Position numbers and translations under genes: made by a program
The notes under the pieces: generated by a model
Databases searched by the model: none
What the model was told of the DNA's origin: nothing
Seen by the model: the letters and a program-made list of their open reading frames with translations, nothing else
In this document: positions 37,335 through 52,854 of the stretch, piece by piece
Layout of the letters: each line of letters starts with the position of its first letter
Position numbering within the stretch: the first letter of the stretch is position 1
Source of the DNA: Saccharibacillus brassicae
GTDB lineage: Bacteria > Bacillota > Bacilli > Paenibacillales > Paenibacillaceae
Direction: 5' to 3'
Length of the DNA: 64,000 bases
Assembly (NCBI RefSeq): GCF_006542275.1
Contig: NZ_CP041217.1
Location: 3,147,501 to 3,211,500, forward strand

Positions 37335-37419
37335 CATACACACCCCGCCGCCGCAGCGCGAAACGAATCAGCGGCGAAACTTATCGAATCTATCGAACAG
37401 AATGAAGGGAGCGATCAAG

Positions 37420-38316: not shown

Positions 38317-39611
38317 GATCATTCGGAATCGTATTCGGCTATTCGTTCAAGGAACGGATTCGTTCCAAATCGTTTTTGTGGATGACGGTGCTGCTTGTCG
38401 CGCTGATCGCGGCGATCGTGCTTATTCCGAGACTCACGGGCGGAGGAACATCGACGCAAGGAACGGTTGCGGTCGTCAATACCACCTCGCTGCCGATCGA
38501 TGCGGAGGGACTGGGAACTTCCGTATCTCCGTTGTATGAATGGAAGATGGTGCCGGAGAGCGAACAGGCCGAACAAGCGAAATTGTTGCAAAATGAAGAA
38601 CTGTCCGCGATCGTCGCGATTGCGCCGGCTGCCGAAGCGTCAGCGGCTCCGCAAATCACGTTGTCGGTGAACCGTCAGGAAGATGTTGCGTTCGCGCCGA
38701 ATCTATCGGCTTACGTGGAGCGGTTGAACGTGAAAGAAAGCGTCGAAGAGCTCGGACTTTCTGCGGAACAGGCGGCTTCGGTTACGGCCCGGCCTTCCTT
38801 GGAACTGAACGAGTTGAACGCCGGAGGCAAGTCGTTCACACAGACTTATATGCCGGTCTATGCGCTGCTTACCCTGATGTTCTTCATGATCTATCTGTTC
38901 GCGGGCAACGTTGCCACTTCGGTCTCGGTCGAAAAAGGCTCGCGCATTCAAGAAATTCTCATTACGAAAGTCAGACCCGGTCAACTGCTGGCAGGCAAGG
39001 TATTCGGCGTCGGCGCAGCGGGAATTCTCCAGTTTGCCATTATCGCGGGCTTCGGCGTGCTGTTGATGAGTTTCGGCGGAACGGGAGAAGCGCTGTCGAT
39101 CGGCAACTTGTCTATCGATCTATCGATTCTGGGCGGCCAAACTCTGGTTGTTGCGGCTGCACTATTCATCCTCGGCTACTTCTTCTATGCGACGTTGTTT
39201 GCGGCGGCAGGTTCGATGGTCAGCCGGAGCGAAGAGTTGAATCAGGCGATGCTGCCGGTGTCGATGCTGCTTATGGCGTGCTTTATCGTCTCCTTGATGA
39301 TATTGGCGAACCCCAACGGAACATTAGCTGTCGTTTCTTCCTATATTCCGTTCTTGACGCCGATGGTTCTGATAACCCGCGTAGGCGCAGGAGAACCGGC
39401 TTTGCTGGAAATCGTGTTTCCGATGGTGATCCTGGTCGTATCGACGCTGTTGGTCGGTTGGCTGTCGGGCAAAGTTTACCGTAACGGCGTGCTGCTCTAC
39501 GGACAGAAGCCTTCCATGGGCATGATGTTTAAAATGCTCGGCTCCGCAGGAAACAAAGCTTCCCGAGCCAAGATCGCGACATCCGAAGGCCAAGCCAAAC
39601 ACGCGGTTTAA
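38313..39611 (+). CDS. ABC-2 type permease, copy 1 (NatB/YhaP-like)
   Basis: 432 residues. One N-terminal membrane helix, a large extracytoplasmic domain (about 45-175), then five or six helices (about 180-400) containing GNVATSVSVEKGSRIQEIL. The family exports sodium, peptides or membrane-active compounds. Same length as, and strongly similar to, the permease at 57403. Its place directly before the RiPP cluster and the duplicate after it suggest self-protection or export, which is inference. Confidence 0.9.
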   Translation: MRSFGIVFGYSFKERIRSKSFLWMTVLLVALIAAIVLIPRLTGGGTSTQGTVAVVNTTSLPIDAEGLGTSVSPLYEWKMVPESEQAEQAKLLQNEELSAIVAIAPAAEASAAPQITLSVNRQEDVAFAPNLSAYVERLNVKESVEELGLSAEQAASVTARPSLELNELNAGGKSFTQTYMPVYALLTLMFFMIYLFAGNVATSVSVEKGSRIQEILITKVRPGQLLAGKVFGVGAAGILQFAIIAGFGVLLMSFGGTGEALSIGNLSIDLSILGGQTLVVAAALFILGYFFYATLFAAAGSMVSRSEELNQAMLPVSMLLMACFIVSLMILANPNGTLAVVSSYIPFLTPMVLITRVGAGEPALLEIVFPMVILVVSTLLVGWLSGKVYRNGVLLYGQKPSMGMMFKMLGSAGNKASRAKIATSEGQAKHAV

Positions 39612-39681
39612 TGAACAGCAACGATGCAGCAAGGGGAATGAGGTTGAAGAATTGCAAGTCCCTTTATATAGGAGGAAAAGA

Positions 39682-39906
39682 GTGCGGCTTATGTTCAGAA
39701 AAGTGTTTCCGTTGTGTATCGGAGCGGCTGTCGGCGCGCTGGCTGCTACCGTCGCCGCTGCGGCTCAAAGCCCGTGCTTTCATAGAAAGAACGGAAAAGG
39801 CCGCTCGCGAGTACGTGCAGTCGGTTCGTGCCCTGGACAGCGTCCGCCTTCTTACGGGGGCGTTGATTGCGTGGGAAGAGTGCCGCATGGCGCAAGCATG
39901 AACTAG
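39682..39906 (+). CDS. Small membrane-protein ORF after ABC-2 operon 1 (possibly frameshifted)
   Basis: A GTG at 39682 lies 5 nt after AGGAGG and opens MRLMFRKVFPLCIGAAVGAL, one membrane helix. The opening resembles the small protein after the second exporter (MLRKFVPLLLGAVIGLLVG). Beyond the helix this frame becomes basic and low quality. Another frame gives a more protein-like helical tail (LKARAFIERTEKAAREYVQ), so the gene may be broken by a frameshift. Function unknown. Confidence 0.35.
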   Translation: MRLMFRKVFPLCIGAAVGALAATVAAAAQSPCFHRKNGKGRSRVRAVGSCPGQRPPSYGGVDCVGRVPHGASMN

Positions 39907-39922
39907 ACTTACCGACAGTTTG

Positions 39923-39952
39923 AAGACGACCGCATATACGGTCGTCTTTTTG
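39923..39952 (+). terminator. Terminator before the RiPP cluster
   Basis: AAGACGACCG-CATATA-CGGTCGTCTT with a T5 tail. It closes the first exporter operon, so the RiPP operon needs its own promoter. Confidence 0.88.
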
Positions 39953-40033: not shown

Positions 40034-40141
40034 TTGCGGAGCCGCGCAAAGACCGCAAAGACAGGCTCAAGTCAGCGCAATGCGTTTGTGGGAAAACCTT
40101 ACATTCTTTTCGGTGAAATCCTTTTGAAACGGGTTTATGAT
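40034..40141 (+). promoter_or_regulatory. ComA-type promoter of the RiPP operon
   Basis: TTGCGGAGCCGCGCAA (40034-40049) matches the ComA box TTGCGG-N4-CCGCAA at 11 of 12 defined positions, and another CCGCAA half-site follows at 40053. TTGTGGGAA begins at 40086, exactly 50 nt before the -10 TATGAT (40136-40141), which continues as GAAATCAAGC. The 50-nt spacing and the GAAATCAAGC block also occur at the comX promoter and at the promoter of the second exporter. Transcription start would be about 105 nt before the TTG at 40254. Confidence 0.7.
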
Positions 40142-40253
40142 GAAATCAAGCAAAAGGAACACAGACACGCCGCACCGAAAAAGAACGCCGCCGAGCAAGT
40201 CGCAGCGCTCCGGTGAGGACGAATCAAAGCCGATGGTTAAGGAGGCGAAGCAG

Positions 40254-42653
40254 TTGTACGGTTTCACTTACGGAGATGGCATTACGCTCATTCATTTTAA
40301 AGCTCAGTCTTCTAGACTGTACACAGCCGGCGACAGCTTGAACTGTCGATACATAAGAGCCCATTTCAAAAGCCGTGGCGGCAACGCTGCGCAGTACATC
40401 GAAGCCAGCTTGGGGACACTTCAGGATTGCGCCGAAGAGATCGAATCGTTCGGAAGCGCCATTGTCGCACTCGAAGTCGAACCGCAGACCTACTCGCTTT
40501 GCCGGGGGCTATGCAGAACGCTGAAGCGATTGGACCCCGACATCCGAATCATCTGGTTTGGAGAATGGGTCGGAAAGCTTCGGGATATGGATCCGGCAGA
40601 TGCAGGCGCGGATGCTTTCATTATGGCAGGACCCGAAAGCCTCCTGTGGAGACTGTCCGAGTCGGACAAAGAAAGCTGGCGAAGCGAATCGGATTTGAAG
40701 CTTGCCGGCGAGGTTTATATCGAAGAAATGCACCAAGAAGCCTTTTCGTATACGGAAGCCGAAATCGAAGAAGACCTGTATCTGCTGGATCGCTTAAGCT
40801 CGCCGGAAGCAGCCAAAGGTCCAGGATGTACGGTTCGTTGGGCCGACCTTCAAGGCGAAATTTCGAAAAGCAAAGGACTTCGACGGTATTCCGCAAGCCG
40901 ATTCGCCCGGGAGCTTCAGCAAGAAGCGAATCGCGGAGACGGCTCGCCGATAGTCGTAGAAGGCTTTGAGCTTGAACAATCGCCGCAACGACTTCTTCAA
41001 GGGCTTGACGTTTTGCGGGAGTATGCGACCGATTCGGGGTTCGAGATTGCTTTGAGTTCCGAGCAGTTGGGTTGGATCGAACCTGAACGTTTGGCAGCCT
41101 TGAATATCGCAGTGCTTGAACTCATAGTGACGGATTCCGATGCTTTCCGTTCACCCGAGACAAGAAATCGACTGACACATTGGAAAACATGCAGGGCCAA
41201 TGTAAGGCTTCGAATCAAACTCGACGAAAAAAGCGTCTTATCCGGACAAGAAACAGCGCCTGCGCTCCGGGATTGGCTGAATGCCGGTTTGATCGGGCAG
41301 GGAGACTTGACCATTCGCGTGAACGGTCCGGAAAAAACGAAGCTTGACGCTGAAACGGCAGAGCTTTTATCGGTTTGTACAGGCGGCAGCGATCCGGCCT
41401 TGCTGAACGGTTATCTCGCATTCAAAACGGGTCAGTATCCGCCGCAAGTACTCGGAAGCGGAGTGAAGCACATCGCGGTGTCCGAAGAGCATGTAGCAGG
41501 TCTTGCGAGATTGGAGCCGGATCAGCTGATGGGAATCAACAGCGCCTTCATTTTAAACGAAAACTCAGTTTGCAAATCGGAAAAGGGAGAAAAATATATC
41601 GATATTGAGGGAGTCGTGAAGCAAACCCGAGAATGGTACAGGCCTATCGATCATGAGTTAGAACAGCAGCGGCAGTATGTGCCTCACGTCCATGCGGAGA
41701 TTCGAAATGCCGCTGACGGAATGACGCGTTTGGAGATGAGCGAATTTGATTTCGGATCTCCGGTTGAGATCGGACTGAGGAATTATCGGGAAGCTTCCGA
41801 GCCGGCCGATAAGGAGAATGCGAACGGACGAGGTTTGGAGATTTTGCAGCTTGCCCAACCCGCCGATCTGGATGCTTTCATGGAAGACGTAGAAGCTTTC
41901 GAACGAGAAGGCCGATTCGTTCGAGGCTATCAGGTACAAGGGTATGTCGCGGACAGTTGTCGATGGTCAGCTGCCGGACAATGCCCGATCAAGCAGCTTC
42001 CGCGCCTGTACACGGAAGCCGACGGTGAAGTTTCCGGCTGCGGAGGGTGCTCCGCCATCGGCCGAATCGGAGATTCTTATGACGCGCTGCAGCGCGAAGC
42101 GGCAGCAATTTCCACTCGCGAACAACTGCTGCGCGGCTGCGACGGCTGTGAAATCCGCGATACCTGCTCCAAATGCACGTTTTTGCCGGGGTATATGACC
42201 CGAGACCAATACTGTGATCTTCGCAAGCGTCATGTACTGCTGCACCGTTATATGCAGGTCGCGCAACTGCTTAAAGGACTGCGTCAATATACGGCGGTAT
42301 TCCGTGATATTGATATCCGCGAAATCGGAGTATCCCTGCGAACCTGCACGCATGTGCTGCCCGCGTCCTATGCAAGCGAAGGCGACGCATGGGTACCGGA
42401 TCATCTGTTTGTTCTGTTCGTCGGCGGTCAACCGCTGCTTTACCAGGCAAATGGAGGGAAACTGCTGAAACTGAGTCCTCTGATGGCTTTGGTGCTAGAA
42501 GCGGGGATCAAAGGATTGTCCGAAATGTCGCTCAGACGAGCGATTTCCGAAGTATTCAAGGCCGACGAAGCACAAGCCGAAACGGCAGCGCGTCAGGTTG
42601 GTCTCAAGCTGGACGAAATGGGCATCTTGTCCGCTTCGCGCAGAGCTTCTTAA
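40254..42653 (+). CDS. Degenerate B12-radical SAM/SPASM-like protein with PqqD-like C-terminus (RiPP maturation, pseudo-enzyme)
   Basis: 799 residues from the TTG at 40254, which has a perfect AAGGAGG 8 nt upstream; the ATG at 40137 overlaps the -10 box. Numbering is from that TTG. About 1-150 resembles a cobalamin-binding domain (RYIRAHFKSRGG, then PDIRIIWFGEW). About 190-480 follows a radical SAM barrel, but the CxxxCxxC cluster motif reads C192-TVR-W196-AD-L199, followed by KGLRRYSASRFAREL as in true enzymes. A Cys-rich SPASM-like region holds C569, C577, C596, C599, C629, C632, C638, C641 and C654. The last ~85 residues resemble a PqqD/RRE fold (LLYQANGGKLLKLSPLMALV). I infer a catalytically dead scaffold or leader-binding protein; the domain assignment rests on pattern, not on a search. 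Confidence 0.6.
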   Translation: MYGFTYGDGITLIHFKAQSSRLYTAGDSLNCRYIRAHFKSRGGNAAQYIEASLGTLQDCAEEIESFGSAIVALEVEPQTYSLCRGLCRTLKRLDPDIRIIWFGEWVGKLRDMDPADAGADAFIMAGPESLLWRLSESDKESWRSESDLKLAGEVYIEEMHQEAFSYTEAEIEEDLYLLDRLSSPEAAKGPGCTVRWADLQGEISKSKGLRRYSASRFARELQQEANRGDGSPIVVEGFELEQSPQRLLQGLDVLREYATDSGFEIALSSEQLGWIEPERLAALNIAVLELIVTDSDAFRSPETRNRLTHWKTCRANVRLRIKLDEKSVLSGQETAPALRDWLNAGLIGQGDLTIRVNGPEKTKLDAETAELLSVCTGGSDPALLNGYLAFKTGQYPPQVLGSGVKHIAVSEEHVAGLARLEPDQLMGINSAFILNENSVCKSEKGEKYIDIEGVVKQTREWYRPIDHELEQQRQYVPHVHAEIRNAADGMTRLEMSEFDFGSPVEIGLRNYREASEPADKENANGRGLEILQLAQPADLDAFMEDVEAFEREGRFVRGYQVQGYVADSCRWSAAGQCPIKQLPRLYTEADGEVSGCGGCSAIGRIGDSYDALQREAAAISTREQLLRGCDGCEIRDTCSKCTFLPGYMTRDQYCDLRKRHVLLHRYMQVAQLLKGLRQYTAVFRDIDIREIGVSLRTCTHVLPASYASEGDAWVPDHLFVLFVGGQPLLYQANGGKLLKLSPLMALVLEAGIKGLSEMSLRRAISEVFKADEAQAETAARQVGLKLDEMGILSASRRAS

Positions 42654-42678
42654 AGCAAAAGATAAAGGAGAATCGGTT

Positions 42679-43998
42679 ATGTCTACGATGCAAAATGTGC
42701 AAAGGGCGGTCTATCCGCTGATCCACCCGCTAAAAAACGTTCAGCTGGGCGAATCGTTCACTTCTCTGCTTGAAGGATCGGGCATCTATGTTCGGGACGA
42801 GAACGGAAAGCCTTATATTGACGGAATCAGCGGCCTATGGAATGTATCGCTCGGGTACGGACATTCCGGCATTCGGCAGGCGATCATCGAACAACTCGAC
42901 CGGATTCCGTTCGTGAACCTGGTCGATCAGACCAATCCGACCACGGTCAAATTCGCGCAAGAGCTGTTGGCACTGACGCCGGAGCGTCTGTCCCGGGCGA
43001 TTTACACCTGCACCGGTTCGGAATCGGCCGAGTTGGCGATCAAGCTGATACGCAAATACCAGAGCCTGCGTGGTCTGGAGCAAAAGCAGAATATCGTGGC
43101 GCTGAGCATTTCCTACCACGGCACATATTACGGAGCGATGAGCGCAAGCGGGATCGATAGGGAGATTTCCCAGGGCTACGGTCCGAAAGTACCGGGCTTC
43201 CTGTTCCACGATACGCCGCTTAGCAGCCTGGGACGAGGCAGCGAAGACGAAGAACTGCGTGCGATTGAAGAGTTGTTTGAACGTGAAGGAGACCGTATTG
43301 CCGGAATGATTGTTGAGCCGATTATCGGCTCGGGCGGAACAATTCCTCTGCCGGATTCGTTTTTGCGAAAAATTCGGGAACTGTGCGACTTGCATGGCGC
43401 ACTCCTTGCTTTTGACGAAGTAGCCACGGGAATGGGCAGAACAGGCCGAATGTTCGCATTCGAATACAGCGGTGCCGTACCGGATATCCTTTGTTTATCC
43501 AAAGGCATTAACAGCGGATATTTGCCGCTTGGAGCAGTTCTGTTCAGTGAAGCGATCTACCGTGAATTCGCGGTTGCCAATCTGCATATTGAGCATTTGT
43601 CCACACAAAATGGCAATCCTATTGCCTGCTCAGCTGGATTGGCGACGATCGAAGCCTTAAACCAACCGGGCATGCTGGAGCATGTTTCCGAGATGGGAGA
43701 ATTGCTGCGCGAACTTTTGAACGAAGAGCTTGCGGATTGCCCGGTCTTTTTGGAAACACGCGGCAAAGGCTTGATGACAGGGGTTGCACTGCAAGATGAT
43801 CTGGTGGGCGGCGTTTGCATGGAGGCCGAGCGTCTTTCCGCCCTGGTCAACCGGCTGAAGCAGCGGGGATTAATCGTGTATCCGTTCTACACGCCGGGCG
43901 TCACAACAGGATTCCATCTCTATCCTCCATTCGTCATTTCCGCTCAGGAAGTATCGAAGATCGTCGCTATTATCAAAAAAACGCTGGGAGGCAGGTGA
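42679..43998 (+). CDS. Class III PLP aminotransferase (daptide MpaD-like)
   Basis: 439 residues from the ATG at 42679 (AAAGGAG upstream). Class III aminotransferase features: GLWNVSLGYGHSGIRQAI, TCTGSESAELAIKLIRKY, FDEVATGMGRTGRMFAFE and the PLP lysine K275 in CLSKGINSGYLPLGA. In daptide pathways an enzyme of this class aminates the ketone made by oxidative decarboxylation of the C-terminal Thr. The neighbouring Thr-ending precursors, methyltransferase and dehydrogenase support that role, by inference. Confidence 0.82.
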   Translation: MSTMQNVQRAVYPLIHPLKNVQLGESFTSLLEGSGIYVRDENGKPYIDGISGLWNVSLGYGHSGIRQAIIEQLDRIPFVNLVDQTNPTTVKFAQELLALTPERLSRAIYTCTGSESAELAIKLIRKYQSLRGLEQKQNIVALSISYHGTYYGAMSASGIDREISQGYGPKVPGFLFHDTPLSSLGRGSEDEELRAIEELFEREGDRIAGMIVEPIIGSGGTIPLPDSFLRKIRELCDLHGALLAFDEVATGMGRTGRMFAFEYSGAVPDILCLSKGINSGYLPLGAVLFSEAIYREFAVANLHIEHLSTQNGNPIACSAGLATIEALNQPGMLEHVSEMGELLRELLNEELADCPVFLETRGKGLMTGVALQDDLVGGVCMEAERLSALVNRLKQRGLIVYPFYTPGVTTGFHLYPPFVISAQEVSKIVAIIKKTLGGR

Positions 43999-44003
43999 GA
44001 AGT

Positions 44004-44102
44004 ATGCAGCGTGGCTATTCGTTTGATCCTTTGAAAGAAACGACGCTTTTTGGCGGCGAATATCCCGGCGATGAGCCGCTTAACGCAACGGTATTGTTCT
44101 AA
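44004..44102 (+). CDS. Small ORF between aminotransferase and precursor array
   Basis: 32 residues (MQRGYSFDPLKETTLFGGEY, then PGDEPLNATVLF) starting 5 bp after the aminotransferase stop, with GGAGG about 12 nt and AGGTGAG about 4 nt upstream. It lacks the [AT]PG junction and the terminal Thr of the precursors, so it is not an obvious daptide precursor. It could be another peptide substrate, for example for the YcaO system, or a small accessory protein. No family recognised. Confidence 0.4.
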   Translation: MQRGYSFDPLKETTLFGGEYPGDEPLNATVLF

Positions 44103-44161
44103 TCCCTTTCCGGATATCCAAGAGCCTTAAAAGAGTTTACTTTGTGAAGGAGGTGAGAAAT

Positions 44162-44284
44162 ATGGAAAAAGCTTGGAGCGTAGAAGCCGAAGAGCTGGAA
44201 GCTGTCACGGCGCCGACAGGCGGCATGTACATAGGCGGACCGATCATAGGCGTGGTTGTCGGCGGATTGATCTCCCTTACCTAA
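44162..44284 (+). CDS. RiPP precursor peptide 1 (daptide-like, ends in Thr)
   Basis: 40 residues with a strong AAGGAGGTG site. Acidic leader (EAEELEAV) ending in TAP, then a hydrophobic Gly/Ile/Val core ending ISLT. It is the most divergent of the eight precursors and the only one with Met, Tyr and Pro in the core. A C-terminal Thr and a membrane-helix-like core are the hallmarks of daptide precursors. Confidence 0.8.
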   Translation: MEKAWSVEAEELEAVTAPTGGMYIGGPIIGVVVGGLISLT

Positions 44285-44305
44285 TATTCGAGGAGGAATG
44301 TGAAA

Positions 44306-44443
44306 ATGAAAGAACTGCAAGCACTGGATCTGGAACTGTTGGAAAACGTGGAAGCGCCGGGCAATGCGAGAGATTTCGTAACAGGCGTAGCAGCCGGAGT
44401 CGGCGTAGTCGCAGCCGGTGCCGCATTGGTTGCCTTCACGTAA
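44306..44443 (+). CDS. RiPP precursor peptide 2 (daptide-like, type A)
   Basis: 45 residues with GAGGAGG upstream. Leader with LELLENVEAP, core starting GNARDFVTGV and continuing as an Ala/Gly/Val helix to LVAFT. Near-identical to the peptides at 44862 and 45474; together they form type A. This copy begins MKELQALD where the others begin MNEQQ. Confidence 0.85.
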   Translation: MKELQALDLELLENVEAPGNARDFVTGVAAGVGVVAAGAALVAFT

Positions 44444-44509
44444 GCGAATTTTGAACAACCAAATACCGAATCACCCAATAAATCCATACGAAAAAAGGAG
44501 CGATTGAAC

Positions 44510-44635
44510 ATGGAACAAGCAAACAATCTGAATGTTGAGGAACTGGAAATGATGGACACGCCGGGTTGGGCAGAGATTGCTACAGGATTCGCGGCAGGCG
44601 TAGCGGTGGGCGGCGTAATCGTCGCATTGACGTAA
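44510..44635 (+). CDS. RiPP precursor peptide 3 (daptide-like, type B)
   Basis: 41 residues with AAAAGGAG upstream. Leader with NVEELEMMDTP, core GWAEIATGFAAGVAVGG to VIVALT. Protein identical to the copy at 45066. The core opening G-W after the TP junction recalls known daptide precursors. Confidence 0.85.
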   Translation: MEQANNLNVEELEMMDTPGWAEIATGFAAGVAVGGVIVALT

Positions 44636-44687
44636 GCTAAGCAAAAACCGAATCAAAACCAAAACTAAAATCGAGGAGCGATTAATC

Positions 44688-44813
44688 ATGGAAAACATGC
44701 TGAATGTACAACTGGAAGAACTGGAAGAAGTAGCGGCACCGGGAGACGGAGCGTTTATCGGCGGAGTAGTTGTCGGTGTTATTGTCGGCGGCGGTCTGAT
44801 CGCTTTCACGTAA
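44688..44813 (+). CDS. RiPP precursor peptide 4 (daptide-like, type C)
   Basis: 41 residues with GAGGAG upstream. Leader with QLEELEEVAAP, core GDGAFIGGVVVGVIVGGG to LIAFT. The only Ser, Thr or Cys in this core is the terminal Thr, which matters for what the YcaO system can act on. Protein identical to the copy at 45244. Confidence 0.85.
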   Translation: MENMLNVQLEELEEVAAPGDGAFIGGVVVGVIVGGGLIAFT

Positions 44814-44861
44814 AATCTTTTTCAAAATCCCAAAACCAAACCCATTAGGAGGAATATGAAA

Positions 44862-44999
44862 ATGAACGAACAACAAGCACTGGATCTGGAACTGCTGGAA
44901 AACGTGGAAGCGCCGGGCAATGCGAGAGATTTCGTAACAGGCGTAGCAGCCGGAGTCGGCGTAGTCGCAGCCGGTGCCGCATTGGTTGCCTTCACGTAA
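44862..44999 (+). CDS. RiPP precursor peptide 5 (daptide-like, type A)
   Basis: 45 residues with TAGGAGGA upstream. Same core as the peptide at 44306, differing only in the first residues (MNEQQALD). It begins exactly 556 bp after that copy, as part of a duplicated three-gene block. Confidence 0.85.
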   Translation: MNEQQALDLELLENVEAPGNARDFVTGVAAGVGVVAAGAALVAFT

Positions 45000-45065
45000 G
45001 CGAATTTTGAACAACCAAATACCGAATCACCCAATAAATCCATACGAAAAAAGGAGCGATTGAAC

Positions 45066-45191
45066 ATGGAACAAGCAAACAATCTGAATGTTGAGGAACT
45101 GGAAATGATGGACACGCCGGGTTGGGCAGAGATTGCTACAGGATTCGCGGCAGGCGTAGCGGTGGGCGGCGTAATCGTCGCATTGACGTAA
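45066..45191 (+). CDS. RiPP precursor peptide 6 (daptide-like, type B)
   Basis: 41 residues with AAAAGGAG upstream. Identical protein to the peptide at 44510, 556 bp downstream of it. Flanking non-coding sequence is also nearly identical, so the duplication is recent. Confidence 0.85.
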   Translation: MEQANNLNVEELEMMDTPGWAEIATGFAAGVAVGGVIVALT

Positions 45192-45243
45192 GCTAAGCAA
45201 AAACTGAATCAAAACCAAAACTAAAATCGAGGAGCGATTAATT

Positions 45244-45369
45244 ATGGAAAACATGCTGAATGTACAACTGGAAGAACTGGAAGAAGTAGCGGCACCGGGA
45301 GACGGAGCGTTTATCGGCGGAGTAGTTGTAGGCGTCATCGTGGGCGGCGGTCTGATCGCTTTTACGTAA
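45244..45369 (+). CDS. RiPP precursor peptide 7 (daptide-like, type C)
   Basis: 41 residues with GAGGAG upstream. Identical protein to the peptide at 44688, 556 bp downstream, with a few silent changes near the 3' end (for example GTAGGCGTCATCGTG instead of GTCGGTGTTATTGTC). Confidence 0.85.
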   Translation: MENMLNVQLEELEEVAAPGDGAFIGGVVVGVIVGGGLIAFT

Positions 45370-45473
45370 AGAGTATTTTTGCTAAACGCAAAGCGCAGCA
45401 GAAGTACTCTGAATCTGAAAACTGGTAACTTCAAATCCTGAAAATCAAACCCAATTCTAGGAGGAATATAAAA

Positions 45474-45611
45474 ATGAACGAACAGCAAGCGGTGGATCTG
45501 GAACTGTTGGAAAACGTGGAAGCACCGGGTAACGCCCAGGACTTCATTACAGGGGTAGCGACAGGCGTAGGCGTAGTTGCGGCAGGAGCGGCACTGGTTG
45601 CTTTTACTTGA
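45474..45611 (+). CDS. RiPP precursor peptide 8 (daptide-like, type A variant)
   Basis: 45 residues with TAGGAGGA upstream. Type A with changes QDFITG for RDFVTG and ATGVG for AAGVG; it ends LVAFT with a TGA stop where the other seven use TAA. Probably the first gene of a third block, now diverged. After it the 127-bp gap to the protease gene holds imperfect hairpins (ATAAGC with GCTTAT; CCGCTGAAGCGG) that might lower downstream transcription. Confidence 0.85.
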   Translation: MNEQQAVDLELLENVEAPGNAQDFITGVATGVGVVAAGAALVAFT

Positions 45612-45738
45612 AAAATAAGCTTGGCATGACATGATCGGGACATAGGGGGCTTATTCCGCTGAAGCGGCAGCCGCAAAGGCGGAAGGCCCCGTTCCTTACG
45701 AACCACGTATCTATTCTGGGAAACGAAGGTGATGAACA

Positions 45739-46881
45739 TTGACTCAAGCAGCAGAAGTTGTTGAATTTCATGAGACTGAAAATAATTCTTTTATGATTAA
45801 ACATAAATTGTTGAACAAATACATCAAAGTAGGCCGACGGGAAGCGGATTATCTGAAGCTGCTGATCAGCCATCCGGAAGACAGCGAACGAGAGCGTCTT
45901 TATCAAGGCGAATTAACGGAAAAAGAGCGGCGGTATTTGATGGAAAAGTTCGAGGAATGGGGATTTCTTCAAACGGAAGCCGAAGAAATGCCGGCGAAAA
46001 AACGGGATATGACGCTGATCAAGCTTTTCCGCTTCAATCCGAACCGCTGGTTGGAAAAAAATCTTTATATCATTCGAATCCTGCTGCATCCGGTAGCGGT
46101 TGCTGCCTACGGACTGCTGATGCTCGGAGCGCTCTATATGATGATGTCCGATCCCGATTTGGTCAACCGTATTTCTCTGAACGGAATCGGAATCAAAGAA
46201 GGGTTGATCCTGTATCTGATGATGATCGCAACGACGGCTTTTCACGAGATGTCCCATGCCGCCGTATGCAAAAAGTACGGAGGAAGCGTTCCTGAAACCG
46301 GCGTGATGCTGTTTTATTTCGGGCCTGCCATGTTCTGCGACGTCAGCTCGACCTATTTGTTCAAAAAGAAGCGTCATAAATTGGCTGTTCTGTTCGCCGG
46401 CATTTACAGCCAGTGGATGATGACCGCTATATCGGCTATCACGTTCTATGGTTTGCTGCAAGCCGGAATCGAAGCGCCTCTGTTGCTGTACTACTCTATC
46501 GCCAACTTGGGGATGAGTTTGCTCAATCTGATTCCTCTGGTAAAGCTCGACGGTTATTGGATGCTCTGCCATTCGCTCGGCATCGTCAATTTGAGGCAAA
46601 AAGCATTCCGTGCCGTGTTCAGCAAAATCCTGCCCCGTTCGAAGCGGAAAGACGGCATGAAAGCTAATGCGGAACGACCTTTCGAGAAAAGAGTACTGCT
46701 GCTTTACGGCATTGCCGCCGCAGCTTTTACTCCGCTCTTCTGGGGCTGGGGCATCTATCAGCTGATTGATCGGTTGCAGCCTTATCTCGGAATGTTCGCC
46801 TACGCCGCGGCATCGATCTTGCTGATCATGTTGGCCGTGCATGCGATGAAGTTCTGGAGAACGCTTAGAGAAACCGTTTAA
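45739..46881 (+). CDS. Intramembrane M50-type metalloprotease (daptide MpaP-like)
   Basis: 380 residues from a TTG start (GAAGGTGAT upstream). An N-terminal soluble domain (about 1-95, perhaps winged-helix or PqqD-like) is followed by several membrane helices. The zinc-binding motif is H169-E-x-x-H173 in TAFHEMSHAAVCKKYGG, and the third ligand motif is LNLIPLVKLDGYW with D271, the site-2 protease pattern. Such proteases accompany daptide clusters and are thought to release the leader within the membrane. Placed directly after the precursor genes. Confidence 0.85.
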   Translation: MTQAAEVVEFHETENNSFMIKHKLLNKYIKVGRREADYLKLLISHPEDSERERLYQGELTEKERRYLMEKFEEWGFLQTEAEEMPAKKRDMTLIKLFRFNPNRWLEKNLYIIRILLHPVAVAAYGLLMLGALYMMMSDPDLVNRISLNGIGIKEGLILYLMMIATTAFHEMSHAAVCKKYGGSVPETGVMLFYFGPAMFCDVSSTYLFKKKRHKLAVLFAGIYSQWMMTAISAITFYGLLQAGIEAPLLLYYSIANLGMSLLNLIPLVKLDGYWMLCHSLGIVNLRQKAFRAVFSKILPRSKRKDGMKANAERPFEKRVLLLYGIAAAAFTPLFWGWGIYQLIDRLQPYLGMFAYAAASILLIMLAVHAMKFWRTLRETV

Positions 46882-46925
46882 GTCGGATAAAAGGACGATA
46901 GAAGTACGAGTGAGGAGGGACTGCG

Positions 46926-47780
46926 ATGAACCGGGATGAGGCACAAATGCTGTCGAAACCGACCGAAGATGCAAGGGATCGGTTATTATCCGCTAAAGGC
47001 GATCAGCTTGTTCAAAGCCATAGAAACCTGGCCGGAAAAAGGGTTCTTGTAACAGGTGCGGGAAGAGGAATCGGAGCCAAGGTAGCTGAAAGCTTCGCCA
47101 GAGAAGGAGCGGCGATCGTCATGACCGAAATTCCGACCGAAATGGAACGGCTGGAAGCGGTGGCTCAAGAGTTGGGAAAATCGTACGGACAAGAAACCAA
47201 AAGCCTGATGCTTGATATTCGCAGCGGCGAATCGATAGCAGAGTGCGCAGCCGCGCTCAAGCAGGACGGACTGGCGATCGACTATTTGGTTAACAATGCC
47301 GGCGTCAACATGCTCGTGCCGGCATTGGAGGTTACGCCGCAGCAATGGGATCTGATCGCGGACGTCAACTTGAAAGGTACGTTTTTCCTGACCCAACAGA
47401 TTGCCAAAAGCATGGTGAAACGAAGAAGCGGCTCGATCGTCATGCTTGCTTCCCAACACGGCGTGGTGGCCAACGAGAATCGCGCGCCGTATTGCGCCAG
47501 CAAAGCGGGATTGATTCATCTCACCAAAGCTTTGGCGCTGGAATGGGCCAAGTACGGAATTCGCGTCAATGCGGTTTCGCCGACTTTCGTCGCTACCGAA
47601 GCCAATCGCGAACATGTGGAAGATCCGAGATTCCGCCGAATGAGCCTGCCGAAAATTCCGCTGCGCAAACTTGCCGTACCTTCGGATATTGCGGAAGCCG
47701 TGCTGTTTTTGGCTTCGGATCAAGCGGGTATGATCACCGGACATAATCTGATTGTGGACGGCGGCTGGACGGTCGCCTAA
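46926..47780 (+). CDS. SDR-family dehydrogenase of the RiPP cluster
   Basis: 284 residues with GGAGGG before the ATG. NAD(P)-binding TGAGRGIG at residues 43-50, NNAGVN, and the catalytic Y189-xxx-K193 in PYCASKAG. An N-terminal extension of about 35 residues precedes the fold. In known daptide pathways a dehydrogenase oxidatively decarboxylates the C-terminal Thr; an SDR in that position would be a different enzyme family from the alcohol dehydrogenase-type MpaB as I recall it. Assignment of that step to this gene is inference. Confidence 0.82.
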   Translation: MNRDEAQMLSKPTEDARDRLLSAKGDQLVQSHRNLAGKRVLVTGAGRGIGAKVAESFAREGAAIVMTEIPTEMERLEAVAQELGKSYGQETKSLMLDIRSGESIAECAAALKQDGLAIDYLVNNAGVNMLVPALEVTPQQWDLIADVNLKGTFFLTQQIAKSMVKRRSGSIVMLASQHGVVANENRAPYCASKAGLIHLTKALALEWAKYGIRVNAVSPTFVATEANREHVEDPRFRRMSLPKIPLRKLAVPSDIAEAVLFLASDQAGMITGHNLIVDGGWTVA

Positions 47781-47823
47781 CGGACGGATTTCGATAAGAC
47801 CGACAAGAAAAGGGGAGAGGATT

Positions 47824-48645
47824 ATGTATTTCGGAATTTTCAAAGAGCTGCGCAGCCTGAACCTGCCGCACAGTCATGATATGGACTTGTATGAAGGTTA
47901 TTACTCGGAGTTCTACGAAGCGTTGACGGATCGGACCGAGTACGACATTGAATTGCTGGCCGAGCAAGCCGAACGGGTTCGCGGTCAAGGACGGATTTTG
48001 GAGCTGGCTTGCGGTGCCGGACGCGTGTTGATCCAACTGGCCCGGCGCGGACATTCGACGCTCGGCTTGGATCTGTCGCCGGATATGCTGGCCTTGTACC
48101 GCCGGAAAAGCGTTAGGCTGCCGGAAAATGTTCGTGGCCGTATCGAAGTCGGACAAGCGGACATGACTTCGTTCGTACAAGCAGAAAAGTTTCCGCTGAT
48201 CGTGTTGTCGGCCACAAGCGTCAGCCTGCTGCCGGATATGGCTTCGGTAGAAAGAATGCTGGAAACGGTATACGCGCATCTGGAGGAAGGCGGGCGTTTC
48301 GTGTTCGACTATGTCTACGAGAACAGCGAGCACAACCGCGAAATGCGCGACGGCAAAGTGGACGGCGTTACGATCGATCTCGGTCCCGATCATAAGCAAT
48401 TCGTATTGATGGGCGAGCACGAAGAGCACGACTCGCGCAAAGCCGTTATGAACTTTTACGCGGAAGTGGTACAAGGCGGAAGCACGCGCCGTTACTTCGG
48501 CTCCACGTCCAAAAGCTTTTTCCCGGAAGCGCAAATTCTGGACTGCGTGAATCGATCTTCCTTGAAGCTGATCGAGACGCATACTTATCCCGCGGATCAG
48601 GCCCCTGTGCGCTGCCTTGTGCTTGAGAAAGGAAAGGTGAGCTGA
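47824..48645 (+). CDS. SAM-dependent methyltransferase (daptide MpaM-like)
   Basis: 273 residues from the ATG at 47824 (GGGGAGAGG upstream). Class I methyltransferase with motif I ILELACGAGRVLIQLARRG (about 59-77), the acidic end of beta-2 in LGLDLSPDML and motif III RFVFDYVYE. In daptides a methyltransferase dimethylates the new C-terminal amine. Its stop overlaps the next start (TGATG), so it is coupled to the E1-like gene. Confidence 0.82.
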   Translation: MYFGIFKELRSLNLPHSHDMDLYEGYYSEFYEALTDRTEYDIELLAEQAERVRGQGRILELACGAGRVLIQLARRGHSTLGLDLSPDMLALYRRKSVRLPENVRGRIEVGQADMTSFVQAEKFPLIVLSATSVSLLPDMASVERMLETVYAHLEEGGRFVFDYVYENSEHNREMRDGKVDGVTIDLGPDHKQFVLMGEHEEHDSRKAVMNFYAEVVQGGSTRRYFGSTSKSFFPEAQILDCVNRSSLKLIETHTYPADQAPVRCLVLEKGKVS

Positions 48646-49226
48646 TGGGCGAATATTGGATTCTTCACGCGGAAGAAGACCGGGCGAAAGCCGAGAAGAT
48701 CGGCGGTATGCTTCAAATCGCCGGACTGCCGGTTCGATGGACGGAGTCCCCAGACGAAGTACGGGAAGTGCCTGAATTGGTGATCGCGATCGGCAGCGAG
48801 GAACGACTTTTGGCCTGGAACGAGATCGCGCATCGCCAAGGGTTCAATTGGCTGCCGGTGCGTTTCAATCGCCTTGGAGGCAGTTTGGGTCCGCTGGTCA
48901 TTCCCGGAGTTACCGCTTGCCGGGAATGCTTGAAGCAGCGCATGGCGTCTTTGTCCAGCCCCGAGTTTCCGGAGGCGGGAGCCGGGTTCGAATTGTCTTG
49001 GCAGATTTTTGCCGGCATCGTCGCGCTTGAAGTTGCGAAGTGGTCATCCCGGCACAAAAGCAGCTTCGCGCCGTTGACGCTCGGGCATCTGTTGGAATTC
49101 GATGCGTTCCATATCGAAGGCGAGTTGTCGGCGGTACATCGCGTTCCGACCTGCAGCGTATGCGGCGTGCGTCGATCGGCTTCGCTGGCCGCGCAGCCGT
49201 GGACGGAAGCGGCGGTGCTCGCATGA
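48645..49226 (+). CDS. E1-like partner protein of the YcaO cyclodehydratase (short form)
   Basis: 193 residues. It resembles the C-terminal part of TOMM/azole-type cyclodehydratase C-proteins: IPGVTACRECLKQRMASL supplies one CxxC-like pair and PTCSVCGVR the other, together a likely structural zinc site. It is much shorter than full E1-like proteins and shows no clear leader-binding domain, so leader recognition may come from another protein in the cluster. Overlaps the YcaO gene by 4 bp. Confidence 0.65.
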   Translation: MGEYWILHAEEDRAKAEKIGGMLQIAGLPVRWTESPDEVREVPELVIAIGSEERLLAWNEIAHRQGFNWLPVRFNRLGGSLGPLVIPGVTACRECLKQRMASLSSPEFPEAGAGFELSWQIFAGIVALEVAKWSSRHKSSFAPLTLGHLLEFDAFHIEGELSAVHRVPTCSVCGVRRSASLAAQPWTEAAVLA

Positions 49227-50566
49227 GCCGTCAACTGATTCGCAGATCTTCGTCCGTCGGAGCGAATGCCGGCGTGCCGAAAGCATTGGCCGCAACGCTA
49301 GGCGGTCGGGGCGGGATCGTGAAAGGCTTGATAAATGTGAATTCCGACGCGGAAGATCCCGAGCTTTTTTTGAGTCTGGCCATTCCGGGCAATCCCAAAA
49401 GCTTCGTTCCGGGCCAGGAAGGGTTGATCGACTTTTTTGCGAGCGGCATGGGACGCACGCCGGAAGAAGCAAATACATCTGCTGTTGCGGAAGCGGTCGA
49501 ACGCTATTGCGCGTCTTACGTGCAGCCCGACCGGACGATCTTCGCTTCGTGGCAGGAGTTGGGTGCCAACGCGCTGCACCCGAGCGAACTTCCGCTGTTC
49601 ACGAAAGAGCAGCACGCCAAGTCGGGGTTTCCGTACCGTCCGTTCACGGAGGACAGCCGTATAGGATGGTTCGAGGCTTACAGCCTGACCCGAAGAAGGA
49701 ACGTATACGTTCCGGCTGCGCTGACCTGGGACTCTTACCGGCCGATCGCTCCGAACGAAGACGCGATTTGCTTCGGTCTTATGACGGGCTCTGCGGCCGG
49801 CTCGACCTTGGAACAAGCCATGCTCGGCGGGCTGCTGGAAATCATCGAACGGGATTCGTTCATGATCATGTGGTATAACCGTTTGCAGATGCCGGGTATC
49901 GACTTGAACGGCTCCGCGCTGTTGGAACCGTTCGGAGCGCTGATGGACAAGCGGCGTTTCCGGCTTGATTTGGTGGATACGACTTCGGATATCGGCGTGC
50001 CTTCCGTCTTCGGCCTGCTGCATACCCGCGACGGAAAAGTCTCGTTCGGCGGTGCGGCCCGCAGTACGCTTGAGGAGGCCGCCGCCAAGACGCTGATGGA
50101 GATCAGCCAGCTGTATATGGGCAACAAAGCGCAGATTTACGCCTCGGGACTTCCCGAGCTGCAAGCGGATCAGATCGTCGATTACGGTCTGCGGCTGCCT
50201 TATTACGAGCAGCCCAATGCGATGCGCGAGCTTGATTTCGCCTGCGGGGCACCCAAAACGCGAAAGCTCGCCGCGAACCCGATCGACGTCAAAATGTCCA
50301 ATGCCGAGCAGTTGAAGCAGGTGCTTGATCGGCTTGCGGCACGCGGACTGGAAGCGATCTGCGCGGACATTACGACCGAAGACGCGAGAGCGCTCGGGCT
50401 GCATGTCGTCAAAATGATCGTACCCGGAAGCGTGCAGCTTCCGCGAAGCGAGCATGAACGCCTGGTCGGAAGCCGCCGCATTTTCGATGTTCCGGTCGAG
50501 ATGGGGTACCGCACGTTCCCGATCGCGCCGACGGACTTGAATGCGGCGCCGCACCCTTTTCCCTGA
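49223..50566 (+). CDS. YcaO-domain cyclodehydratase
   Basis: 447 residues from the ATG at 49223 that overlaps the upstream stop. The ATP/Mg-binding YcaO signature is GSTLEQAMLGGLLEIIERDSF (about 192-212, read in pieces), preceded by EEANTSAVAEAVERYCA. The protein ends PHPFP, the PxPxP tail that is typical of azoline-forming YcaO proteins. With the E1-like protein it should cyclise Cys, Ser or Thr side chains onto the backbone. The cluster's precursors have no Cys, so the true substrate is open. Confidence 0.88.
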   Translation: MSRQLIRRSSSVGANAGVPKALAATLGGRGGIVKGLINVNSDAEDPELFLSLAIPGNPKSFVPGQEGLIDFFASGMGRTPEEANTSAVAEAVERYCASYVQPDRTIFASWQELGANALHPSELPLFTKEQHAKSGFPYRPFTEDSRIGWFEAYSLTRRRNVYVPAALTWDSYRPIAPNEDAICFGLMTGSAAGSTLEQAMLGGLLEIIERDSFMIMWYNRLQMPGIDLNGSALLEPFGALMDKRRFRLDLVDTTSDIGVPSVFGLLHTRDGKVSFGGAARSTLEEAAAKTLMEISQLYMGNKAQIYASGLPELQADQIVDYGLRLPYYEQPNAMRELDFACGAPKTRKLAANPIDVKMSNAEQLKQVLDRLAARGLEAICADITTEDARALGLHVVKMIVPGSVQLPRSEHERLVGSRRIFDVPVEMGYRTFPIAPTDLNAAPHPFP

Positions 50567-50580
50567 AAGGAGAATGCTTG

Positions 50581-51312
50581 ATGAGTCTTAAATTTAACGA
50601 TTGGAGATCCGAACGTGAATTGGATGAAGAACGTCTCTCGCTGACCTACCATGCCGGTTCCGCTCACCACCCCGAATTGGACATATTGATGAGATCTCGG
50701 ATGAAAATGCTTGGCAACCTGTTTCGGCACCTGGACGGTCAGGCTTCGTCGGACAAACGTTATTTCGGTTCGTCGACGATTCCGTCGAGCGAAGCGGACA
50801 TCCCGCCGAATCTGAAGCAATGGTTAGACGCTTATGTCCGAACCTGGATGTTCCATTCCGAAGCTCCTTTCGAGGATTTGCGCGTACTGGAGCAAGCTGC
50901 CGGATTCAAGCCCGATCAGTCGGAGCTGTACATGGTTTGCCGGAACGAAGAAGGAAAGCACGTTTGCTATCATATCGAGGAGCAAGGGCGGGGATTGAAG
51001 TGCTGCGGCCGGCCTTGGAATATTTCGTTGGAAGATGCTTTTCCGCCGGGACTGCTGAGCGGCTCGCCGCGGGCGATCTGGTTCGTCGCCGCCAATTTGC
51101 ATCGTTCGCATAAGCTGCTCGGCGAACGGGGCTACCGTTATAGTCTGCTGGAAGCAGGGCGAATCGCGAAACAAGTGCAGAGCTGCGCGCCTCAAGCAAC
51201 AGATACGGCTCCGATTGCCACGTTTTATGACGACAGAGTGAATGAATGGCTGGGATTGGACGGGATTTACGAAGTTGCGCTCGCGGCAGTCGTTCTGTAC
51301 GACAAACCGTAA
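50581..51312 (+). CDS. SagB/ThcOx-type FMN-dependent dehydrogenase
   Basis: 243 residues from the ATG at 50581 (AAGGAG 8 nt upstream). The C-terminal half matches the nitroreductase-like SagB fold: GYRYSLLEAGRIAKQVQ, ATFYDDRVNEWLGLDGIYE and ALAAVVL. The N-terminal 90 residues are less typical. SagB enzymes oxidise azolines to azoles after YcaO action. Last gene of the RiPP operon before a terminator. Confidence 0.78.
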   Translation: MSLKFNDWRSERELDEERLSLTYHAGSAHHPELDILMRSRMKMLGNLFRHLDGQASSDKRYFGSSTIPSSEADIPPNLKQWLDAYVRTWMFHSEAPFEDLRVLEQAAGFKPDQSELYMVCRNEEGKHVCYHIEEQGRGLKCCGRPWNISLEDAFPPGLLSGSPRAIWFVAANLHRSHKLLGERGYRYSLLEAGRIAKQVQSCAPQATDTAPIATFYDDRVNEWLGLDGIYEVALAAVVLYDKP

Positions 51313-51332
51313 CCGCATATGAATCATGCAGA

Positions 51333-51361
51333 AGATCTTTCCGAACGGAAAGGTCTTTTTT
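51333..51361 (+). terminator. Terminator of the RiPP operon
   Basis: AGATCTTTCC-GAAC-GGAAAGGTCT stem with one G-U pair and a T6 tail. It separates the biosynthetic genes from comQ. Confidence 0.8.
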
Positions 51362-51482: not shown

Positions 51483-52400
51483 TTGAATTGGAATGAAGCG
51501 ATTAAGCAAACGTTGATGCAAGGGATCGAACAAGGATTCAACCAGGCCGAACTTCGGGAAATGGCAGCGGAATGCGCGGCGTACAAGCTGTCGGAAAAAG
51601 CGCTTTTCGGCAATCTTACTATGCTCCACTATCAAATGTACGGCGGAGAGGGTGACGGGATTTTGCAAGCGGCGGCTGCCGTCGAAGCATTGGTACTGTC
51701 TTTGGACATGATCGACGATCTGCAGGACGGAGATAATGAAGTGGCTCCGTGGAGCAAATTCCGAAGCGATCTTACCTTGAATATCGCGCTCGGATTTTCG
51801 TTTTTGGCTCAGCAGATGCTGCTGCAAGCTCCTTTTCCGTCCGAACGCAAATATGAAGCGGCTGCGCTGCTCAATGCTCAATTGCTTACGACCGTAAGCG
51901 GACAAATGATCGATCTTTTGAATGCCGTTTATACGGAAGAACAGTATATGGAGATGATTTCGGGTAAATCGGCTTCCTTGCTTGTACTGGCGGTTCAACT
52001 GGGTACGTTGCTCGGTTGCGGGGAAACCAAGACCGAAAGTGCGGAATTTGCTCTTCAACTGGGGATAGCGGCTCAGATCAAGAACGATATCAAAGATATT
52101 ACGAATCATGAAGGCAAAAATGATTTTTGGAACCGTAAGCGTACGCTTCCGGTTTTGATGCTGCTGAATTATTTGGAAGGTGAAGATCATTGGGCAAAGG
52201 AGTATTTTGAAGGGAAATTAAGCTATGATGAAGTCCAAACCAAAGCAGCCGAATTTGAGGAGGCACTTGAACAATCCGGTGCGCTCGCCTATGCTTCGGT
52301 AAGAATGCGTATCGCTTATTATCGTTGTCTGGACGTGATCGAATCGTTACCCGTGCAATCTGAATTCAAGCAGATATTGGACCAGACCATTCGCGTGTGA
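51483..52400 (+). CDS. comQ: ComQ isoprenyl transferase (pheromone maturation)
   Basis: 305 residues, TTG start with AAGGAGAG. Polyprenyl synthase fold with the first Asp-rich motif D75-MID78-D79-LQD82 and a second NDIKD segment, plus the FWNRKRTLPVLMLL region. ComQ attaches a farnesyl or geranyl group to a Trp of ComX and releases the mature pheromone. The comX gene follows at 52644, then comP and comA, the classic order. Family identity is well supported by both sequence and context. Confidence 0.88.
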   Translation: MNWNEAIKQTLMQGIEQGFNQAELREMAAECAAYKLSEKALFGNLTMLHYQMYGGEGDGILQAAAAVEALVLSLDMIDDLQDGDNEVAPWSKFRSDLTLNIALGFSFLAQQMLLQAPFPSERKYEAAALLNAQLLTTVSGQMIDLLNAVYTEEQYMEMISGKSASLLVLAVQLGTLLGCGETKTESAEFALQLGIAAQIKNDIKDITNHEGKNDFWNRKRTLPVLMLLNYLEGEDHWAKEYFEGKLSYDEVQTKAAEFEEALEQSGALAYASVRMRIAYYRCLDVIESLPVQSEFKQILDQTIRV

Positions 52401-52430
52401 AAGTCTTTTTTTGCATGTCCGCAGCCCGCT

Positions 52431-52517
52431 TTGCGTTCCCGCAAAAACACCGCAAAAACAATTGCGGGAATTGTCGCGGCGGTTGTCGTTTCCCGAACTT
52501 CTTGGTGCTGGTATAGT
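52431..52517 (+). promoter_or_regulatory. ComA-type promoter of comXPA
   Basis: Boxes TTGCGTTCCCGCAA (52431-52444), CCGCAA (52450-52455) and TTGCGGGAATT (from 52462). The -10 TATAGT (52512-52517, extended as TGGTATAGT) lies 50 nt after the start of the last box and continues GAAATCAAGCC. GGTTGTCGTTT between them is shared with the promoter at 56.3 kb. It implies positive feedback of ComA on its own signalling genes. Confidence 0.7.
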
Positions 52518-52643
52518 GAAATCAAGCCAAACGCCGGAACCACTATCCAGAATCTTCTCGCTTCCGATCGCCGGTTAAGCTGACAGCTCCAGGCAGATGC
52601 ACTGCCGGCTGCATCCATCCCAACTTACGGAGGTTGATCGGAA

Positions 52644-52829
52644 ATGTTGAAAGAAGCGATAGCGATGCTTATGCAAAACAAGAATGCTTGGGTCGAATTC
52701 CAATCGGGACAACTACAGTTTGTCGGGCTTGGAGCAATGGAGCAGCGGGCATTGAAAGAAGTGTTCCAAGAAGGCAAAAACGACAAGGTCTTAAAAAACG
52801 CCAGCCTAGCAGCTTGGGGAGTCGTATAG
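52644..52829 (+). CDS. comX: ComX pheromone precursor
   Basis: 61 residues with GGAGG about 10 nt before the ATG. Like ComX it is a short, Lys/Glu-rich prepeptide (MLKEAIAMLMQNKNAWVE at the start) with a single Trp near the C-terminus, W58, in LAAWGVV. That Trp, followed by Gly, is the expected isoprenylation site. It lies between comQ and comP, which makes the call secure despite the low sequence conservation usual for ComX. Confidence 0.88.
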   Translation: MLKEAIAMLMQNKNAWVEFQSGQLQFVGLGAMEQRALKEVFQEGKNDKVLKNASLAAWGVV

Positions 52830-52854
52830 ATTTCTGTAGGAAATGGAGGATTCC

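Follow-up and report, generated by a model that had tools for sequence, protein, structure and literature searches.

A daptide operon of Saccharibacillus brassicae with E1-like, YcaO and SagB-like proteins that may form C-terminal imidazolines

What would an E1-like protein, a YcaO protein and a SagB-like protein, the set known from thiazole/oxazole-modified microcin (TOMM) clusters, do in an operon for daptides? The question is raised by a 64,000-nucleotide stretch of Saccharibacillus brassicae DNA (the window; positions 3147501-3211500 of a 5.62-Mb single-contig genome). An earlier note, made from the sequence alone, had placed a daptide set and a TOMM-type set in one operon, and we found every gene it named in its place within a single compact operon at 40137-51312, which runs in the order DapB, DapD, a 32-codon open reading frame (ORF), eight precursors, DapP, a short-chain dehydrogenase (SDR), DapM, E1-like, YcaO and SagB-like. 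We propose, with moderate confidence, that this is a YcaO-bearing Bacillota daptide cluster making C-terminal imidazolines through its E1-like/YcaO pair, with the SagB-like protein in a non-oxidising role. The operon comprises the following features.

40137-42653, (+): DapB, degenerate, resembling cobalamin-dependent radical S-adenosylmethionine (SAM) proteins, with a Cys-rich SPASM-like region and a C-terminal RiPP recognition element (RRE; RiPP, ribosomally synthesized and post-translationally modified peptide) at residues 749-838
42679-43998, (+): DapD, class III aminotransferase; NF041821 521 bits (cut-off 450)
44004-44102, (+): 32-codon ORF between DapD and the precursors; translation MQRGYSFDPLKETTLFGGEYPGDEPLNATVLF
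44162-44284, (+): precursor A1, core TGGMYIGGPIIGVVVGGLISLT, cleavage after Ala-Pro (AP) assumed
44306-44443, (+): precursor A2, core GNARDFVTGVAAGVGVVAAGAALVAFT
44510-44635, (+): precursor A3, core GWAEIATGFAAGVAVGGVIVALT; NF041808 38.9 bits (cut-off 25)
44688-44813, (+): precursor A4, core GDGAFIGGVVVGVIVGGGLIAFT, without internal Cys, Ser or Thr; NF041808 38.6 bits
44862-44999, (+): precursor A5, core identical to A2; NF041808 44.1 bits
45066-45191, (+): precursor A6, identical to A3
45244-45369, (+): precursor A7, identical to A4
45474-45611, (+): precursor A8, core GNAQDFITGVATGVGVVAAGAALVAFT
45739-46881, (+): DapP, intramembrane metalloprotease, predicted to remove the leader; NF041824 438 bits (cut-off 300)
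46926-47780, (+): DapC, SDR, predicted oxidative decarboxylase partner of DapB; PF13561 2.1e-64
47824-48645, (+): DapM, N-methyltransferase; NF041820 212 bits (cut-off 175)
48645-49226, (+): short E1-like partner, cyclodehydratase C-protein type; TIGR03882 43.6 bits (cut-off 36.9)
49223-50566, (+): YcaO cyclodehydratase ending in PHPFP; TIGR03604 302 bits (cut-off 219), PF02624 245 bits
50581-51312, (+): SagB-like protein with a dehydrogenase fold and degenerate flavin motifs; TIGR03605 26.7 bits (cut-off 78.4)

The gene identities, which the earlier note had drawn from motifs, held at the level of NCBIfam cut-offs for DapD, DapP, DapM and the E1-like and YcaO proteins, the last two being the pair that marks a TOMM set (TIGR03882 and TIGR03604); DapB (NF041823 45.6 bits, with 150 needed) and the SagB-like protein fell below theirs, and for these fold comparison supports the assignment, including the RRE of DapB and the nitroreductase/SagB fold of the SagB-like protein. 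The Pfam matches of the DapC SDR were generic (PF13561/PF00106), and PF13561 fills this decarboxylase slot in Bacillota daptides (PMC10036551). DapM and the E1-like gene overlap by 1 base, E1-like and YcaO by 4 bases, and 14 bases separate YcaO from the SagB-like gene, and this spacing suggests coupled translation.

When 394 Paenibacillaceae genomes were surveyed with the daptide protease model, 11 of them, including the window's own, scored above the cut-off (111 matched at E 0.001, mostly weakly), and 20 stretches were then taken for gene content. Together with one genome that narrowly missed the cut-off (G251, 295.9 bits) this gave 12 clusters, and in each of the 12 the daptide genes were linked to the E1-like, YcaO and SagB-like trio. 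The earlier note would have been contradicted by related clusters with the two gene sets always apart, and it stood up to this check. Apart from the position of an ATP-binding cassette (ABC) transporter pair, the gene order was the same in the 11 further Paenibacillaceae genomes, the contig of one (L037) starting after DapB and DapD; since the same set recurs in the same order, we conclude that the operon is not a chance assembly. Eight of the remaining nine stretches had no such set, and the ninth (L048, genome G291) was a broken daptide cluster with DapB, DapP and ABC fragments, which kept the SagB-like, ComQ-like, kinase and regulator genes and gave no YcaO match. A scan of named genomes, built on two peptide patterns and so not a census, returned 58 loci; the 12 with at least 50% identity were all from Saccharibacillus or Paenibacillus, and 10 of these had dap genes. 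L059 and L062 were considered as TOMM sets independent of daptide genes and rejected: L062 retains an N-terminal DapM fragment, and both are read as relics, L059 by its similarity to L062. The other 46 scan loci (L064-L109; L064, L065 and L075 inspected by eye) were dismissed as daptides, as they held no dap set and a single pattern match (L105) that was not daptide-like. In a class-wide search 2 of 398 drawn genomes matched, namely the window's own and one of the same family, and none outside Paenibacillaceae. No E1-like or SagB genes were detected at E 1e-4 in 12 distinct actinobacterial loci of the published daptide YcaO, DapY, of which L154 spans only 3.7 kb and some others end at contig ends. 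One actinobacterial locus, L151 (genome G807), showed aminotransferase and MpaC-like matches under the daptide cut-off near YcaO-like and SagB-like pieces, and perhaps represents a thiopeptide-like subgroup.

The precursors point to where the YcaO protein may act. As the earlier note had read them, all eight window ORFs, whose starts were chosen by eye, end in Thr; four were run against NCBIfam, of which A3, A4 and A5 exceeded the NF041808 cut-off of 25 (38.6-44.1 bits) and A1, with a query one codon short, reached 13.4 bits with NF041806 (cut-off 40). The 12 clusters encode 73 precursors with 43 distinct cores, on the assumption that the leader is cut after AP or Thr-Pro (TP). An ELE-type leader motif ending in AP, a hydrophobic core and a C-terminal Thr were present in 73 of 73, partly by construction, as the C-terminal Thr and AP/TP were search criteria. 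The penultimate residue was Phe (22) or Leu (21) in every distinct core, whereas over the twelve preceding positions these two residues made up 27 of 516, near-copies among the cores not being independent of one another. Leaving out the final Thr, the 1009 core residues contained no Cys in any of the 43 cores, along with 38 Thr and 20 Ser, and thus lacked the Cys/Ser/Thr richness of TOMM substrates; 12 distinct cores, among them that of A4 and A7, had no internal Cys, Ser or Thr, and the most-used internal Ser/Thr position was occupied in just 9 of 43. This pattern of no Cys, no common internal Ser/Thr and a fixed Phe/Leu-Thr end fits a YcaO protein acting at that end and not inside the peptide. 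Separately, window positions 44306-45369 show A5-A7 as a near letter-for-letter repeat of A2-A4, and the three-gene block looks recently duplicated.

The same cores bear on a different reading, in which the peptides would carry an amine-capped C-terminus and, in some cores, internal methyloxazolines or oxazolines on Ser/Thr. The E1-like and YcaO proteins are of the TruD/LynD heterocyclase type and at least one internal Ser/Thr occurs in 31 of the 43 distinct cores, as this dual modification would need; yet there is no Cys and no Ser/Thr position in common, related cores exchange the residue (FVT for FVE, IAT for VGI), and two of the eight window precursors have no internal site, so that we regard it as unlikely. 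The azole rings that the earlier note had thought possible are likewise not favoured by these cores or by a dehydrogenase-like protein that has lost its usual motifs, and azoles appear the less likely product.

How, then, might the end be modified? The products would be short helical peptides in which a positively charged, probably ring-closed amine takes the place of the acidic end; on the amine-capped C-terminus our prediction agrees with that of the earlier note. By analogy with the pathway reconstituted for other daptides, we infer that DapB, binding the leader through its RRE, and the SDR DapC would turn the C-terminal Thr into an aminoacetone by oxidation and decarboxylation, that DapD would transaminate this to a diamine, and that DapM would methylate the diamine once. 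With ATP, the E1-like/YcaO pair would then form a C-terminal dimethylimidazoline by ring closure between the N-methyl-amine and the carbonyl of the penultimate Phe or Leu, and some peptides may instead keep a dimethylamine. DapP would take off the leader, and the ABC pair would export the peptide. The model for this closure is DapY, which was reported in 2025 to require the diamine first and then to form methyl- or dimethylimidazoline (Miz/Diz) at the C-terminus (PMC12338566). In that account daptide YcaOs fall largely into one group, others being annotated as azoline-forming and thiopeptide-linked. The earlier note had not known of daptide and YcaO genes combined; the combination is, however, already in print, since a 2023 survey lists YcaO and azoline dehydrogenase (TIGR03605) models among the common matches in daptide clusters and mentions that major daptide subgroups contain YcaOs and radical SAM enzymes (PMC10036551). 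We found no description of the form seen in Paenibacillaceae, where the YcaO has an E1-like partner, the SagB lacks its motifs and the radical-SAM DapB looks dead, nor, by title or abstract start, any Paenibacillus daptide with the E1-like/YcaO/SagB-like trio, supplements not being covered.

Whether the ring would stay an imidazoline depends on the SagB-like protein. RRSxR-type and PSxG motifs bind flavin mononucleotide (FMN). The RRSxR-type motif was found in none of 14 SagB-like homologues and PSxG was missing from its aligned place in all seven members aligned with controls; TIGR03605 scores were 25-47 bits in six members and 119-184 bits in three control SagBs. Were the protein a working dehydrogenase, it would aromatise the imidazoline to a C-terminal dimethylimidazole (M-51). 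The word imidazole is absent from the main text of PMC12338566. Against the oxidised product stands the loss of both motifs, which two SagB-type genes elsewhere in the genome, unlinked to the operon, retain (RRTCRRF/RRSYRNF and PSPGG), and we consider this product quite unlikely. Most likely the SagB-like protein is a non-oxidising structural partner, in which case the ring remains an imidazoline. The genome also shows, at L160 6210-8551 (G000:C1:4436209-4438550), a pair of neighbouring SagB-type genes, both full-length and with the canonical motifs, beside a major facilitator superfamily transporter and without a YcaO gene.

The E1-like family aligned with the E1-like domain of TruD (residues 128-326), MusD and LynD, the first ~110 residues of which were unmatched, and accordingly no RRE was recognised in it. 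Among solved structures the YcaO family lies nearest the TruD/MusD/LynD heterocyclases, TruD being the best relative (4e-44 over 428 of 453 profile positions), and its nearest named relatives are from S. sacchari (94% identical), S. endophyticus (93%) and S. kuerlensis (81%). The PxPxP tail pointed out in the earlier note is present, as PHPFP, in 12 of 12 aligned sequences including the window's, with a mean column identity of 73%. The trio might be inactive or serve another substrate, the products then being plain daptides ending in dimethyl-1,2-propanediamine (Dmp; M-17), and two operon proteins do look degenerate; set against this, the YcaO protein is well conserved at the stated identity and tail, occurs in all 12 clusters and is the sole PF02624 match of the window's genome, which makes an idle trio very doubtful in our view.

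Several observations weigh against imidazoline formation by the E1-like/YcaO pair. The published DapY ring is formed after Leu-Thr (PMC12338566), whereas the cores here end in Phe-Thr or Leu-Thr. Compared with two Streptomyces DapYs the window YcaO scored 54 and 42 bits, and compared with a Lactiplantibacillus TOMM YcaO 195 bits; in the YcaO tree ten actinobacterial DapY rows (support 99/100) were separate from nine Bacilli rows (85/80); since the window protein is not close to the DapYs, the argument from analogy is weaker. By the same motif patterns, three of nine dehydrogenase-type controls show neither flavin motif and another three just one, the choice of the dehydrogenase gene being a guess for two of the nine (from L117), and motif loss is no proof of lost flavin or activity. 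The internal Ser/Thr of 31 cores noted above must also be counted here, and the Phe/Leu rule could serve DapB/DapC instead of YcaO. In Actinomycetes the penultimate residue was rejected as a YcaO marker, as Leu, Val and Ile occur there in clusters with DapY and Ala, Ile, Val and Leu in clusters lacking it, which is no clean separation. In the same tree the actinobacterial DapY group joins one Streptomyces YcaO, a placement that carries a long-branch warning. A forced joint clade of both daptide YcaO groups was not rejected (approximately unbiased test, p 0.288), and separate recruitment in the two groups is favoured. A micrococcin-type TclIJN set was discarded as the source of the trio, its L117 YcaO (TclJ) reaching just 79 bits as against 195 for the Lactiplantibacillus protein.

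The inactive-looking radical SAM protein of the earlier note is DapB. The CxxxCxxC motif is absent from all 11 DapB homologues compared (0/11), the nearest folds to its residues 44-396 are cobalamin-dependent radical SAM enzymes, and it looks like a dead member of that family carrying an RRE. A search for DapB on plasmids found none. We offer as a tentative conjecture that Paenibacillaceae recruited a TruD-like E1/YcaO pair for imidazoline closure independently of DapY, the dehydrogenase becoming a non-catalytic partner, and that DapB, which serves as decarboxylation partner in all daptides, derives from a cobalamin-radical-SAM/SPASM peptide maturase minus its cluster, the Bacilli form being an intermediate and the actinobacterial one, short and poor in Cys, a remnant. 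If so, imidazoline capping of daptides would have arisen with two different YcaO lineages, the operon would be a native example of a YcaO working with an E1-like partner at the extreme peptide end, and it would provide a test case for inactive enzymes, here a SagB without its motifs and a radical SAM protein without its cluster, retained as scaffolds.

The neighbouring genes include a probable export/immunity pair upstream and a ComQXPA-like locus downstream.

37402-38316 and 38313-39611, (+): ABC transporter ATPase and permease, a separate operon upstream of the dap operon
51483-52400, (+): ComQ-like isoprenyl transferase, PF00348 4.8e-20, adjoining the ComX-like ORF
52644-52829, (+): ComX-like pheromone precursor of 61 codons, ending SLAAWGVV with Trp four residues from the end
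52843-55185, (+): ComP-like histidine kinase, PF02518 and PF07730
55182-55838, (+): LuxR-type response regulator, with NCBIfam response regulator matches

Homologues of the ABC pair (65-68% and 44-48% identical) lie within the dap operon, between DapP and the SDR, in seven loci (L032, L033, L036 and L038-L041). A terminator-like hairpin at 39922-39949 separates the ABC operon from the dap operon, such sites being no commoner than in shuffles; promoter-like and terminator-like sites in the window were both not above shuffled-sequence level. A 96-codon Cys-rich ORF (39611-39901) without an NCBIfam match overlaps the end of the permease gene. The 32-codon ORF at 44004-44102, also without an NCBIfam match, is conserved in both S. 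sacchari and S. endophyticus. L033 and L036 (L032 similarly) have short Pro-rich hydrophobic ORFs between DapD and the first precursor, for example MAIWPLPFPKLPIPLPFPIDPIILF; these are common to two genomes and have no daptide leader. Downstream, adjacent candidate comQ, comX with a C-terminal Trp, comP and comA genes, the hallmark of ComQXPA, were recognised by position, Pfam matches and the Trp rule; NCBIfam gave no match for the ComX-like ORF, whose length and Trp position agree with the ComX rule (PMC4008528). The ComQ-like gene is present in 11 of the 12 clusters, the window included, and missing in L042; the ComX-like ends differ among clusters, a near-terminal Trp being kept where found. 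We infer that the locus (51483-55838) controls the dap operon, and it would probably tie production to cell density.

How does the operon compare with known systems? With the DapY daptides of Thermobifida fusca (T. fusca) and Streptomyces azureus (PMC12338566/PMC12670281) it shares the core pathway, multiple Thr-ending precursors and a PxPxP-tailed YcaO in the cluster; it differs in that DapC is an SDR here and PF00465 there, and in that the YcaO proteins group apart in the tree. Compared with the 12 actinobacterial DapY loci examined, E1-like and SagB partners were detected only in the window type. The Bacillota daptide clusters of PMC10036551 are alike in having an SDR in place of PF00465, many precursors, and a YcaO and a dehydrogenase named in the survey; the main text of that paper does not mention Paenibacillus (Saccharibacillus was not searched for, nor were supplements covered). 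DapB residues 44-396 are like TokK, OxsB and TsrM in fold, differing in the CxxxCxxC motif, which is missing from 11 of 11 DapB proteins. The cyanobactin heterocyclases TruD and LynD and the TOMM C, D and B sets share E1-like, YcaO and dehydrogenase-fold proteins within one operon, and differ from the window's set, whose E1-like protein has no N-terminal region, whose cores contain no Cys and whose dehydrogenase motifs are lost.

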